Source: Acidobacteriota bacterium (GTDB lineage: Bacteria > Acidobacteriota > Thermoanaerobaculia > Gp7-AA8). Taken from it: DNA of 64,000 bases. The notes under the pieces were generated by a model. It was not told where the DNA came from. It was given only the letters and a program-made list of their open reading frames with translations, and did not search any database. The stretch lies in NCBI GenBank assembly GCA_016184115.1, contig JACPDH010000066.1:62001-126000 (forward strand), written 5' to 3'. The position numbers and the translations under genes were made by a program. Below are positions 27,428-40,477 of the stretch, one piece after another; within the stretch, counting starts at the first letter, position 1; the number at the start of each line of letters is the position of its first letter.

Positions 27428-27727
27428 TCAGTGGCCGGCGCCCGGGCGCGTCATCGAGGCGAGACACATCGAAGGGAGAGCGGAACGGGAAACGCGAAAC
27501 GCGGATCGCGAAACGCGAAACGCGGAACGGAAAACGCGGAAGTGCGACGGGGAGAATCCGGACTGCGGCTCGCGAAACGCGAGAAGCGCAATAGCGAGAC
27601 CCTGATAGGGAGCGATCGATGGTGCGGCCGACGGTTCGCTGGTGCCCCACGCGTGCCCATACCGTCGCTGAGCAGATGCCGTCACCATCTGTTTCGTGAG
27701 TACAGCGATGTCTGAGGGACGATGCAT
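27428..27727 (-). CDS. Possible leader or small ORF upstream of metB
   Basis: A 99-codon open frame whose ATG 27727 is preceded by GGGAGGAGTCC, the best Shine-Dalgarno in the neighbourhood. The first ~57 residues (MHRPSDIAVLTKQMVTASAQ, later RRYGHAWGTSEP) look non-repetitive. The rest runs through the degenerate repeat block, reading FRVFRSAFRVSRSAF-like. It ends 83 bp before the metB start. It could be a regulatory leader peptide or a decayed gene extended by repeat insertion. No family is recognised. Confidence 0.3.
   Translation of the reverse strand: MHRPSDIAVLTKQMVTASAQRRYGHAWGTSEPSAAPSIAPYQGLAIALLAFREPQSGFSPSHFRVFRSAFRVSRSAFRVSRSALPSMCLASMTRPGAGH
27474..27600. repeat. Degenerate GCGAAACGCGGAACG-type repeat block
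   Basis: About a dozen imperfect 7-10-bp units such as GCGAAAC, GCGGAAC and GCGGATC follow one another in tandem between metB and its upstream region. The units are too short and irregular for CRISPR. Similar blocks occur at 27918-28135, 36839-36992 and within the coding region near 38020-38060. Confidence 0.7.
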
Positions 27728-27803
27728 GGACTCCTCCCGCCGTGAGCCGGAAAACGCCAGTCGAGTTGTCGGGGAATCGGGGGTGAAAAACGGGAGACCC
27801 GGG

Positions 27804-27851
27804 TCAGCCGCGACAGACGTCGCTAGCGCCCGGGCGGCGCATCATCATCAT
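27804..27851 (-). promoter_or_regulatory. Candidate methionine-rich leader peptide ORF
   Basis: Minus strand ATGATGATGATG opens a 15-codon ORF encoding MMMMRRPGASDVCRG, then TGA. The stop overlaps GACCCGGGTC, followed shortly by TCCCGTTTTTC, an attenuator-like arrangement 460 bp upstream of the methionine pathway operon. No Shine-Dalgarno is visible, so this is a hypothesis. Confidence 0.25.
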
Positions 27852-27917
27852 GGCGGGAACTGCGAAGCGATGCATGTTGGACGAGCATGATAGGGGCGCA
27901 TGCGAGGGCACGTCAAG

Positions 27918-28135
27918 GGGAATGCGGATTGTTGATTGCGGAGTGCGGAACCGGCTTCACGAGTGTGCGGCACCCATTCGATCGAAGCGCACGCATCGAC
28001 GGGCGGTCGACTTCCACGCAATGTCGCGAGAATCTACTCCGCATTCCGCATTCCACATTCTGCGCTACGCAGCCCGCGTTCCGCCTTTCGCGTTCCGCAT
28101 TCCGCATTCCGCATTCCGCGTTCCGCCCTCCCTAC
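27918..28135. repeat. Inverted pair of GGAATGCGGA-type repeats
   Basis: GGAATGCGGATTG...GCGGAGTGCGG (27918-27950) faces an inverted array CCGCATTCCGCATTCC...CGCGTTCCGC (28038-28131), with about 90 bp of unique sequence between them. The array abuts the stop codon of the LRR gene, so it may also form the 3' hairpin of that transcript. Confidence 0.65.
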
Positions 28136-36838: not shown

Positions 36839-36992
36839 AAACGCGAAACCGGCAACGCGAAACGCGGAATGCGGAGTGCGAAACGCGGAACGGGCAACGC
36901 GAAACACGAAGCGCGAGATGCGAAACGCGTGGCGCGAGACGCCAGACGCGAAACACGAAACGCGTTCCGTGAAAGGCGTTCCGCGTTTCACG
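36839..36992. repeat. Degenerate GCGAAACGCGGAA repeat block
   Basis: About fifteen imperfect units (GCGAAAC, GCGGAAT, GTGCGAAAC, CACGAAAC) follow directly after the DmsBC stop. The tail CGTTCCGTGAAAGGCGTTCCGCG inverts the motif so that the block can fold back on itself. Confidence 0.7.
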
Positions 36993-37020
36993 GGCCGCGA
37001 ATGCGGCCCCGGATCGGTTG

Positions 37021-37185
37021 CCCCCGGGCTTCAGCCGGGGGCCTGCACCCGCACTGATTCGTCGCGCCGCGTAGCGGCGCAGGAATTCGGCGATCCTGCG
37101 CCGCTACGCGGCGCGTTCATCGTTCGTTCACGCCGACCCCGGGCTGAAGCCCGGGGCTACCGATCCTTCGGCGCTACGCGCCGCC
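37021..37185. repeat. Cluster of REP-like palindromes
   Basis: Five dyads are present: CCCCCGG...CCGGGGG (37021-37041), GCGCCGCGTAGCGGCGC (about 37064-37080), its inverted partner GCGCCGCTACGCGGCGC (about 37098-37114), CCCCGGGCTGAAGCCCGGGG (37137-37156) and CGGCGCTACGCGCCG (about 37169-37183). The second and third also pair with each other over more than 20 bp around GGAATTCGGCGATCC. Confidence 0.75.
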
Positions 37186-37221: not shown

Positions 37222-40200
37222 CTAACGCGAACGATTGGACCCTCGTGCCCGCACCTCGTTCTTGCGTCCCGCGTCTCCCCGCATTGCCTCACAGACGACC
37301 TCCGCGAAGTGCTTCGGTCTTCGCCCGGTGAGCTGCATGACCTGCTCGCGGCAACTGAAGCCGTCGGTGACCACCACGGTATCGTCCGCGGCATCGCGAA
37401 CCGCCGGCAGGAGCACGCGCTCCCCCACCGCGACCGATACGTCGTAGTTTCTCGCCTCGAACCCGAACGCGCCAGCCATGCCGCAGCAGCCACTGTCGGG
37501 CGCGTCAACCTCCGCTCCCATCCGCGCAAAGATGCGCATCTCGGCATCGGTCTTCATCACCGCCTTCTGGTGGCAGTGCCCGTGAAAGAGCAGCTTCTCG
37601 ACGGCCTTCGGCAACTCGACCTTCTCCCGTTCGAGGAGCTCGGCGAGTGTGAAGACCTGGCGGCTCAGCTTCTCCGCGTCTGCACCCGGCAAGAGGTTAG
37701 GCAGCTCGTCGCGAAAGACCGCGACGCACGACGGCTCGATGCCGACGATCGGCGTTCCAGCGCGAATTTCCTCACGTAACGCCTCGACGATCTTCTCGAG
37801 CTGCCGCCTCGCCATCCCGAGGAATCCCCAGTCGTAGAGCGGACGACCGCAGCAGAGACCCGACGGAGGGAGGGCGACCTCGAAGCCTGCGCGCTCGAGA
37901 ACCTCCACCGCAGCGTGAGCGACGTGCGGCGTAAAGTGGTTGTTGAACGTGTCAGGCCAGAAGATGACGCGGCGAGATGAACCCGGCCGGAGGCCGGCGG
38001 TCCAGCCAGCAGGACGCCGGCGCTCCTCGGCATTCCGCGTTCCTCGTTCTGCGTTTCGCGTGCCACCGCGGAAAGTCCTCTCCGCGAACCTCGGCATCGT
38101 ACGCTGCCCCGCAATCCCTGTGGACTGCTTCATGATCCCAGCCGTGACCGGCCACTCCATCAGGAAGTTCGCGAGGCGCGGAGCGAGCGAGCCGAGACGC
38201 GCCCAGATGTGAATCCACCCCATCGTGTAAGCGGCGAGCGGACGCACCCGACCCTCGTAGTAGTGCGCGAGGAACTCGGCCTTGTACGACGCCATGTCGA
38301 CCTGCGTCGGGCAGTCGGACCGGCATCCCTTACATGCGAGGCAGAGGTCGAGCGACTCCTTCACTTCTTCGCTCTTCCATCCGTCCTCGACGACCTGGCC
38401 GTCGAGCATCTCGAAGAGGAGCCGCGCACGGCCGCGCGTCGAATGCTTCTCCTCGCGCGTGACCATCCAGCTCGGGCACATCGTGCCGCCCGACTCGCGC
38501 CGGCAGAGGCCGACGCCGACACAGCGCGAGATCGCGTGGTCGAAGCTCCCGCTGTCGCGGAGGAACGTGAAGTGCGTCGTCGGCCGCTTCTCCTGGTACG
38601 CCTCGCCAAGGCGCAGGTTTTCGTCGAGACGGTAAGGCTCGATCACCTTTCCCGGGTTCATCCTCCACTCGGGGTCCCATGCCTCCTTGAACTCGCGGAA
38701 CGCCCGCATCAGCTCGTCGCCGAACATGAGCGGAAGGAGCTCGGCGCGCGACTGCCCGTCGCCGTGCTCGCCGGAGAACGAGCCGCCGTAGCGAGCGACG
38801 AGCTCCGCAGCGTCGCACATGTACGCGCGGAACTTCGCGATTCCCTCCTTCGACTGGAGATCGAAGTCGTTTCGCGTATGGACGCATCCGTCTCCGAAGT
38901 GGCCGTAGAAGTCGCCGATGTAGCCGTAGCGGTCGAGCAGCCGTCGGAGATCGCGAAGGTAGTTGCCGAGATGCGCGGGGGGCACCGCGGCGTCCTCCCA
39001 GCCCTCGTATGCATGGCCACGCCCGTCGACGACGGCAGTTGCGCCTAACGCGGACTCGCGCACTTTCCAGATCCGCGCGGCGCGCTTCGGATCGTCGAGC
39101 AGAAGGATCGACGGCACCTCTCCGTGGGCTCGGCGCAACGCATCGATCAGCATCTCGGCCTGACTGTTCGCATCGGCCATCGTCTCGCCCCCGAATTCGA
39201 CGAGCAGCCAACCAGAGCCGGCAGGGAGCATCGCCATCGACTCCGGATCGATCCCGCGCGCGCGGACGTCGCTCACGAGACGGTCATCGAAGCCCTCGAG
39301 GCCGATGCAGCCGAACTGGAGCACCTCCGTGACGCGGTCAGCCGCCGCATAGACGTCGGAAAATCCGAGCACGACGAGGTTGCGCAGAGGAGGACTGTGG
39401 ACGAGCTTCGTCTTTGCCTCGAGTACGACGACACAGGTCGACTCCGTCCCGACGAGGGCGCGAGCCACATGAAAGCCATTCTCGGGGAGGAGGTGCGGCA
39501 GGTTGTAGCCCGACACCGCGCGCGGGATCTTCGGGAACCTCTCGCGGATGAGCGGCGCGTAGCGGTCGCGGATCGAGCGGAGCTTCGCGTAGATCTCGCT
39601 GCGACGGCCCCCTTCACGAATGATCGCGTCGAGCTCTGCATCGCTCGTCGCGCCGACCCGCATCCGTACGCCGTCGTACGTCACGATCTCGAGCTCCTCG
39701 ATGTTGGCGTCGGTCTTCCCCGCCATGATCGAGTGAACGCCACAGGAGTTGTTGCCGATCATGCCGCCTAACGTACAGCGGCTATGGGTTGCTGGGTCGG
39801 GACCGAATGTCAGCGAGTGGGCTTCAGCGGCATCGCGCAGGTTGTCGAGGACGACTCCCGGCTCCACCCGCGCGAACCGCGCCGCCGCATTCACCTCGAC
39901 GATTCGGTGCATGTACCGCGAGAAGTCGAGCACGACCGCGACATTGCAGCACTGTCCCGCAAGGCTCGTCCCCGCGCCACGGCCGAGAACCGGAGCGCCA
40001 TGGCGTCGGGCGATCTCGAGCGCCGCAACGACGTCCGCTGCGCTCTTCGGCCGGACGACGCCGATCGGTACCTGGCGATAGTTCGACGAGTCGGTCGCGT
40101 AGAGCGCACGCGAGCCGGAGTCGAAAAGCACGTCGCCCGCGATCGCAACGCGCAGCTCGAGGGCGAGTCGGTCCGCATCGCCGCCGAACGGCGCACCGAT

Positions 40201-40230
40201 ACGCCGCCCATGATCATCTGGAGTCGCCAT
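37222..40230 (-). CDS. FAD-linked oxidase fused to Fe-S/CCG domains (GlcD-GlcF / D-lactate dehydrogenase type), with in-frame insert
   Basis: A 1002-aa flavoprotein. The FAD_binding_4 domain has VLGRGAGTSLAGQCCN and TLGGMIGNNSCGVHS; the FAD-oxidase C domain follows to about 540. Ferredoxin motifs are CRRESGGTMCPSW-type and CLACKGCRSDCP, then two CCG domains (GLCCGRP, SGCCGMAG). Such fusions oxidise D-2-hydroxy acids (D-lactate, glycolate) and reduce the respiratory chain. Between TFRGG and RVIFWPDTFNNHF about 31 codons encode TRNAERGTRNAEERRRPAGW and beyond, which match the local repeat family rather than protein homologues. ATG 40230 is chosen; TACAAT lies 9 nt upstream and there is no Shine-Dalgarno. 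Confidence 0.9.
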   Translation of the reverse strand: MATPDDHGRRIGAPFGGDADRLALELRVAIAGDVLFDSGSRALYATDSSNYRQVPIGVVRPKSAADVVAALEIARRHGAPVLGRGAGTSLAGQCCNVAVVLDFSRYMHRIVEVNAAARFARVEPGVVLDNLRDAAEAHSLTFGPDPATHSRCTLGGMIGNNSCGVHSIMAGKTDANIEELEIVTYDGVRMRVGATSDAELDAIIREGGRRSEIYAKLRSIRDRYAPLIRERFPKIPRAVSGYNLPHLLPENGFHVARALVGTESTCVVVLEAKTKLVHSPPLRNLVVLGFSDVYAAADRVTEVLQFGCIGLEGFDDRLVSDVRARGIDPESMAMLPAGSGWLLVEFGGETMADANSQAEMLIDALRRAHGEVPSILLLDDPKRAARIWKVRESALGATAVVDGRGHAYEGWEDAAVPPAHLGNYLRDLRRLLDRYGYIGDFYGHFGDGCVHTRNDFDLQSKEGIAKFRAYMCDAAELVARYGGSFSGEHGDGQSRAELLPLMFGDELMRAFREFKEAWDPEWRMNPGKVIEPYRLDENLRLGEAYQEKRPTTHFTFLRDSGSFDHAISRCVGVGLCRRESGGTMCPSWMVTREEKHSTRGRARLLFEMLDGQVVEDGWKSEEVKESLDLCLACKGCRSDCPTQVDMASYKAEFLAHYYEGRVRPLAAYTMGWIHIWARLGSLAPRLANFLMEWPVTAGIMKQSTGIAGQRTMPRFAERTFRGGTRNAERGTRNAEERRRPAGWTAGLRPGSSRRVIFWPDTFNNHFTPHVAHAAVEVLERAGFEVALPPSGLCCGRPLYDWGFLGMARRQLEKIVEALREEIRAGTPIVGIEPSCVAVFRDELPNLLPGADAEKLSRQVFTLAELLEREKVELPKAVEKLLFHGHCHQKAVMKTDAEMRIFARMGAEVDAPDSGCCGMAGAFGFEARNYDVSVAVGERVLLPAVRDAADDTVVVTDGFSCREQVMQLTGRRPKHFAEVVCEAMRGDAGRKNEVRARGSNRSR
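37969..38062 (-). repeat. In-frame composite repeat insertion inside the FAD/Fe-S oxidoreductase gene
   Basis: About 93 bp (31 codons). On the coding strand the first half is ACGCGAAACGCAGAACGAGG-like, identical in style to the intergenic repeat blocks. The second half is the palindromic GCCGGCCTCCGGCCGGG-type sequence, resembling the hairpin near 15481. The reading frame is maintained. Confidence 0.7.
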
Positions 40231-40239
40231 GGCGTCGCG

Positions 40240-40245
40240 ATTGTA
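40240..40245 (-). promoter_or_regulatory. -10-like TACAAT before FAD/Fe-S oxidoreductase
   Basis: Minus-strand TACAAT ends 9 nt before ATG 40230, with no Shine-Dalgarno between. Confidence 0.35.
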
Positions 40246-40477
40246 TGAGAAACCAACGCCGGGCCGTGGCGCCCGCACCCTCCGAGAGTCGCACACGGTC
40301 CGCGAGTCGAGCATGCTCGCGCCCGAAGCGCGGCCCGAACGGCGCGCGTGGAGCGTCCTCTCGCGCTGACAGCGGTGTCACCTCTTGAGGATCGGCGAAC
40401 GTCGTTCCGCGACGATACTCAACCGAATCTTCAACTTGTCGCGCGCAAAAGATGGCATGCCTCGAGCATCTAGGTGG

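Follow-up and report, generated by a model that had tools for sequence, protein, structure and literature searches.

A linker between two domains of a bacterial GlcD-GlcF-type fusion oxidoreductase has most probably been rewritten by dispersed repeats. Residues 752-779 of the host protein (28 codons) appear to be repeat DNA read as protein; drawn from the intergenic repeat stock of the genome, this DNA occupies and in part replaces the linker that joins the ferredoxin-like domain to the CCG domain, and the best explanation would be the selfish spread of repeats followed by purifying selection at a linker that tolerates them; to these two statements jointly we assign a probability of roughly 0.8. 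The whole insert measures 83 bp. The window, namely the whole stretch of 64,000 nucleotides that was analyzed, is part of contig C90 in the source genome (G000), a 4.42-Mb draft of 126 contigs, and the features at the site are as follows.

37222..40314, minus strand: host gene, a GlcD-GlcF-type fusion oxidoreductase of 1030 aa (Pfam domains and family matches)
37972..38070, minus strand: inter-domain linker from TF to RVIFWPDTF, 33 residues in the window protein (homolog alignment and pLDDT)
38027..38061, minus strand: heptad array of five ACGCGRA-type units, encoding about TRNAERGTRNAE (three overlapping pattern matches and the genome-wide family)
37979..38026, minus strand: double palindrome of 48 bp that adjoins the heptad array and encodes about ERRRPAGWTAGLRPGS (88 percent match to C19:9506-9553; a weaker copy on C115)

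The open reading frame of the host gene was found to combine FAD_binding_4, FAD-oxidase_C, 4Fe-4S, and CCG domains, the set of a GlcD-GlcF fusion, with Pfam matches above the cut-off at residues 83-219, 308-557, 595-672, and 792-867. The gene was matched in all 17 other genomes of the family, in G005 by a distant relative only (34-36 percent). Two family members, G012 and G013, match loci from named MAGs of Thermoanaerobaculia and Acidobacteria (L042 and L041), and the host is probably a member of this group. A search of the C-terminal half against the PDB by sequence gave no match at E 0.01, and its predicted fold resembled LutA, EtfD, and HdrB-type subunits. Twenty columns that are invariant in 50 sequences, the window protein included, flank the insert on both sides, and the CCG domain of the host protein scores over the Pfam cut-off. 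Judging from these invariant columns and this domain, the enzyme function has probably been kept despite the insert. The first-pass annotation had proposed that new protein sequence arose at a linker between domains while the reading frame stayed unbroken, in good agreement with the open frame and with the conserved residues preserved to either side of the insert.

Read along the coding strand, the order is the conserved ...ERTF, then RGG, the five heptads, the 48-bp double palindrome, and the conserved RVIFWPDTFNNHF. The heptads after TFRGG read ACGCGAA, ACGCAGA, ACGAGGA, ACGCGGA, and ATGCCGA, 4 of their 35 bases differing by eye from ACGCGRA, and in this single case the array begins 9 bases past the conserved edge and is directed into the linker. 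An insert of about 31 codons had been annotated at this place; its in-frame position after TFRGG stood, and the repeat-derived part was narrowed to the 28 codons given above. Among the 99 homologs in which the linker was measured its median length is 18 residues, and the family members without inserts have 11-19 residues, as compared with 33 in the window protein. An AlphaFold2 model of the C-terminal half (50 sequences) had a mean pLDDT of 89.4, with block means of 55, 56, and 72 within the insert, the lowest in the model except for its C-terminal end, and of 89 and 97 in the adjacent blocks. Both the length variation and the low predicted confidence suggest that the linker is length-tolerant and probably disordered.

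The comparison of the linker across the family, in which 17 of the 18 genomes have an ortholog reaching it (G005 being the exception), revealed that other repeats occupy the same place. In the family alignment (18 rows, residues 45-1010), the sole minority insertion of at least 8 aa falls at residue 767, that is, in the linker, and four of the 17 orthologs (G000, G001, G004, and G006) have the linker filled by four different dispersed repeats. The linker of G001, a sister species in the same genus as G000, carries a 107-bp palindromic element that is open for 35 codons up to the contig end, which lies inside the element, and that has 73 matches in that genome (40 of 265 candidates scored). In G004, a 52-bp GTAG-REP pair (TGTAG..CTACA) is read as VAAAFRPPSGGLKPAAT and is present in about 40 places (75 candidates, 40 of them scored), and in G006 a 61-bp GTAG-REP pair (CGTAG..CTACG) is read as RRSDSQSDKTRRRTGESDLR and occurs at 51 distinct places by our count, partial ones included; both elements accordingly share the GTAG tag and the high copy number of GTAG REPs. 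Plain 14-aa linkers are found in the same-genus relatives of G004 (G003) and of G006 (G007 and G008). The form of the insert in G000 is absent from all relatives in the family and homolog alignments, none of which has these residues, as the first-pass annotation had anticipated. An empty site together with the C-terminal half was seen in no close relative, and replacement is indistinguishable here from insertion plus deletion.

Outside the family, an Armatimonadetes homolog (L107) holds a fifth repeat in this linker, a palindrome that recurs at 8 further places in the genome concerned. Scanning the aligned homologs for hairpins (residues 25-1010, score of at least 11) located four of the five strongest internal stems at residues 751-767 (L015, L025, L107, and L111) and the fifth at residue 511 (L076). 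The L111 hairpin, at residue 751, was discounted, because its stem pairs the linker with conserved coding sequence and may be due to chance or be local; a similar protein stretch in L089, likewise regarded as chance or local, was left out of the count.

The elements of the relatives were also found within many other genes. With a laxer filter, 40 copies were sampled in each of G004 and G006 (from 37 and 38 loci, with 7 and 1 short matches dropped, respectively), and 14 in each genome proved intragenic, as did one of ten sampled copies of the 107-bp element in G001 (1 short match dropped), and a stricter 45-base filter gave 13/37 in G004 and 9/20 in G006. The gene finder used for these counts was home-made (dicodon model) and would score out-of-frame insertions as intergenic, so that their being "in frame" is partly built in. 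In-frame GTAG-REP pairs occur in many genes at the loci L172-L191 and L222-L276 of G004 and G006, and the 20 host proteins assigned by Pfam included DnaX, two DNA polymerase III alpha types, a Y-family polymerase (IMS), an Lhr-type helicase, UvrA, a Clp ATPase, a lyase, an MFS protein, and glycosyltransferases. In 13 of these 20 proteins the element lies outside or between the Pfam matches (L183 being borderline), and in 7 it lies inside one. In the Clp ATPase, whose best PDB match was ClpA, it stands where the stretch of E. coli ClpA is shorter, and in the argininosuccinate lyase it is matched in the alignment by a stretch of almost the same length. Furthermore, 7 of 37 copies in G004 touch a gene end and supply its stop codon (V*, GTGTAG; e.g., L227-L229 and L232).

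As for the peptides encoded, the 3' half of the 13 intragenic copies in G004 always reads GGLK(P/A)A, and the 5' half is VAA.F-like in 8 of them and reads (C)SGGLQ in the other 5, while 5 of the 9 copies in G006 start with RRSD and 4 with VGRT. The elements of both genomes occur solely in stop-free frames, of which the REP pairs have two that are usable, and the ACGCGRA heptad has no stop codon in any of its six frames. The frame preference, a test of which was suggested with the original description, calls for no special mechanism, because the elements of G004 and G006 lie in stop-free frames and the heptad is open in all six. Selection for a particular peptide was considered as the cause of the preference and set aside as unneeded, since the stop-free frames suffice. 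Intragenic copies, the lack of which would have spoken against the original description, do exist, with one C-terminal tail in G000 and many cases in the relatives.

The recurrence at one linker could also mean that the linker is a target at the DNA level, where a motif or structure attracts insertions, rather than a place of mere protein tolerance. Four different repeats are present in 4 of the 17 family orthologs with none elsewhere in the gene, and uniform placement would bring three further events into the same 35 of 980 residues with a probability of about 5e-5. This uniform null, however, ignores selection, and moreover the repeats differ in kind, a common target sequence was not seen by eye, and the in-frame copies in other genes sit at many kinds of place. 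We consider a DNA-level target improbable.

The heptads in the insert belong to an abundant family. A pattern of three heptads with up to 3 mismatches was matched 26 times in the window, where shuffling gave a mean of 0.10, and 478 times genome-wide in G000, where a reversed control gave 0, and the in-frame repeat DNA inside the GlcD/GlcF-type gene was confirmed to be as originally described by this result and by the palindrome copy on C19 dealt with below. The same pattern was matched 153 times in the sister species G001 (7 in the control), 59 times in G016 (3), and 40 times in G017 (2), and the remaining family genomes were low or near their controls. These counts suggest that the abundance of the heptads is largely a genus expansion. 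Being tandem 7-base units in high copy, the heptads resemble heptameric intergenic repeats in this respect. According to the home-made gene finder, three of the four heptad arrays in the window are intergenic and one lies inside the host gene; the former three are as follows.

36841..36966, plus strand: intergenic heptad array, starting 2 bases past the stop codon of the upstream gene (pattern matches)
27478..27540, plus strand: intergenic heptad array at the left edge of an island (pattern matches)
28073..28128, minus strand: intergenic heptad array at the right edge of the 27478-28128 island; the stop codon of the neighbouring gene is 3 bases away (pattern matches)

In the island downstream of the host gene, at 37010-37165 of the window, there are CCCGGGCTTCAGCCCGGGG-type palindromes, among them one that has GTAG on the minus strand, as well as CGCCGCGTAGCGGCG.

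A sample of G000 made up of 54 stretches that add up to 260 kb, or about 6 percent of the genome, and drawn from places with 0-1 mismatches plus the window plus loci fetched for other reasons, contained 52 arrays, among which 45 were intergenic, 5 overlapped the 3' edge of a gene by 1-8 bases, and 2 were intragenic. In all 50 arrays that were not intragenic, the ACGCGRA strand points away from the nearer gene, in whichever direction that gene runs, and the same outward orientation was observed in 18 of 19 arrays of G001 (loci L280-L293). Arrays at 3' edges (n=35) lie a median of 2 bases from the stop codon, and those at 5' edges (n=15) lie 13-134 bases from the gene. The heptads of G000 are, in other words, mostly intergenic and oriented by the nearer edge, as heptameric intergenic repeats are, and islands with inverted arrays at both ends are a simple reading of this edge rule. 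The statement that the repeat style occurs otherwise only between genes held for the window; in the genome there are also a C-terminal tail and a weak match to the palindrome in a gene on C64. A heptad array encodes this tail, RETRNAECETRNEERNG, in the gene at G000:C37:64717-65619, the second case of heptad-derived protein in G000; the protein bears a HEIAH motif that is presumably zinc-peptidase-like.

The palindrome, in turn, is the low-copy part. Its best other copy in G000, at C19:9506-9553, is intergenic, matches at 88 percent over 48 bases (E 1.4e-10), and bears outer GGGAGC/GCTCCC arms, and further weak matches were obtained on C115 (intergenic) and C64 (within a gene). Neither GTAG nor CTAC occurs within 37979-38026, and with 1-2 other intergenic copies the palindrome is not the high-copy element that a GTAG REP is. 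No heptads were found in the 320 bases examined around the C19 copy, nor was the palindrome found at any of the other heptad arrays by a genome-wide similarity search of G000, so that, from the copies seen, the two parts are not carried along together. Since the palindrome on C19 stands without heptads and the heptads alone form a high-copy family, the insert is not a single element and combines a heptad array with a low-copy palindrome. One spreading element, as initially proposed, is not supported for it; the inserts of the relatives in the same linker are different repeats as well. The exact abutment of array and palindrome, together with the palindromic elements lying in frame in so many genes of G004 and G006, would suit a single mobile palindromic element that jumped in as a unit and was adapted to coding insertion, like the Rickettsia palindromic elements (RPEs). 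Considering that each part is found without the other, we regard such an element as quite improbable.

Linkers vary in length in all phyla seen, and some long ones appear to arise locally. In the Segetibacter homolog L044, the linker repeat was tried as a dispersed one and gave 1 match (with 0 mismatches, taken as the linker itself) against 3 in the control, and the genome of L052 gave none. The 7-base tandem units AAAAGTC and AGGCGGA were observed in this linker of L052 and L044, respectively (Chitinophagaceae and Segetibacter homologs); long linkers were also seen in L063, L067, L069, L073, and L093. That the insert in G000 would similarly be an ordinary GC-rich linker lengthened by local slippage, unrelated to dispersed repeats, is hardly credible against its near match to the family of 478 matches and the intergenic copy to which 48 of its bases are 88 percent identical. 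An assembly chimera at the repeat, conceivable in a draft of 126 contigs given that repeats break assemblies as in G001, is just as implausible, as the sequences left and right of the insert continue a single ortholog in the same frame, the site is internal to a 127-kb contig, and the same phenomenon is present in the separate assemblies of G004 and G006.

In the preferred reading, selfish spread followed by purifying selection at a tolerant linker, repeats would reach many places in the genome by their own spreading. The GTAG palindromes may be carried by RAYT-type transposition. Y1_Tnp (PF01797) had 8 matches in G000 and matches in 17 of the 18 family genomes, of either RAYT or IS200 subtype, and these proteins are possible candidates for the spreading machinery, the matches not being linked to the repeats here. 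One of the 8 matches lies at C90:19846-20094, outside the window on the same contig. The heptads may spread by replication slippage or copying. Most coding insertions, namely those that break the frame or a domain, would be lost by selection, and the linker would retain repeats, being length-tolerant and probably disordered, when these have stop-free frames. Because the repeats do have such frames, mainly the net length modulo 3 would matter, and roughly one insertion in three would be tolerable by length. The insert would then be near neutral for the enzyme.

Repeats within genes have been described before. GTAG and CGTC REPs are short palindromes, many of them with RAYT transposases, that lie inside genes of several species, supply TAG stops, and occur in replication and repair genes; two Xanthomonas have different REPs at about the same recB site, and flexible linkers or loops were already suggested as REP sites (PMC3733652). 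The stop-supplying and in-gene copies of G004 agree with this published pattern, whereas the insert in G000 has no GTAG tag, consists in part of a heptad array, and resides in a different host lineage. With four repeat families in one linker within a single bacterial family, and a fifth in another phylum, the present case exceeds that of recB. The RPEs, for their part, are repeat DNA of about 150 bp translated in frame in unrelated genes, with one element found across genes (reviewed in PMC10969869). The likeness to RPEs that was originally asserted applies to the elements of G004 and G006, which lie in frame in many genes, and does not extend to the insert in G000. The latter would seem to be read through like an RPE, with the host protein unbroken; unlike an RPE, it is an 83-bp composite with a palindromic part of 48 bp, and as a unit it is unique as far as found.

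With regard to the heptads, the GGGAATC-type heptameric repeats of Xanthomonas and Nostoc are described in PMC4692102 as mostly intergenic and near gene ends; they are oriented according to the nearer gene, in whichever direction it runs, a rule that section 13 of that paper gives without explanation. The 7-base units of G000 follow the same edge and orientation rule, and differ in the unit ACGCGRA, which has no G run, and in having one array in an enzyme linker and one as a C-terminal tail. The TAACTGA heptamers of Beggiatoaceae, according to PMC4679880, are dispersed and mostly intergenic with few inside ORFs, and contain stops in all three forward frames; that unit hence terminates ORFs, whereas ACGCGRA is stop-free in every frame. 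In the open-access literature on in-frame repeats, heptads, and Acidobacteria repeats, we recognised no paper on repeats in the GlcD-GlcF linker. In-frame REPs in genes being already published, the heptad-plus-palindrome composite at a linker taken by at least four unrelated repeats is a variant of this phenomenon.

It is conceivable, and we offer this as a tentative view, that inter-domain linkers behave like intergenic DNA, with repeats filling any unconstrained stretch as far as the constrained sequence and heptads pointing away from the constrained edge. If so, the tolerant linkers of long multidomain enzymes would serve as recurrent landing pads, rewritten in one lineage after another, and the rewritten linkers would be a standing source of new linker peptides drawn from whatever repeats the genome carries. 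A stop-free 7-base unit, its length being prime to 3, is able to enter a coding region whatever the frame, and the orientation rule published for heptads, as far as given in PMC4692102, is extended to another bacterial group. One linker with four or five unrelated repeats, together with the plain-linker relatives of the same genera and the sets of intragenic copies in G004 and G006, provides a countable natural experiment on how a bacterial protein gains segments, and the recurrence at the linker makes tolerance and targeting testable against each other. As far as can be judged from the DNA, it thereby points to one route by which new protein pieces may arise, namely intergenic repeats that are read as a linker and are apparently tolerated.
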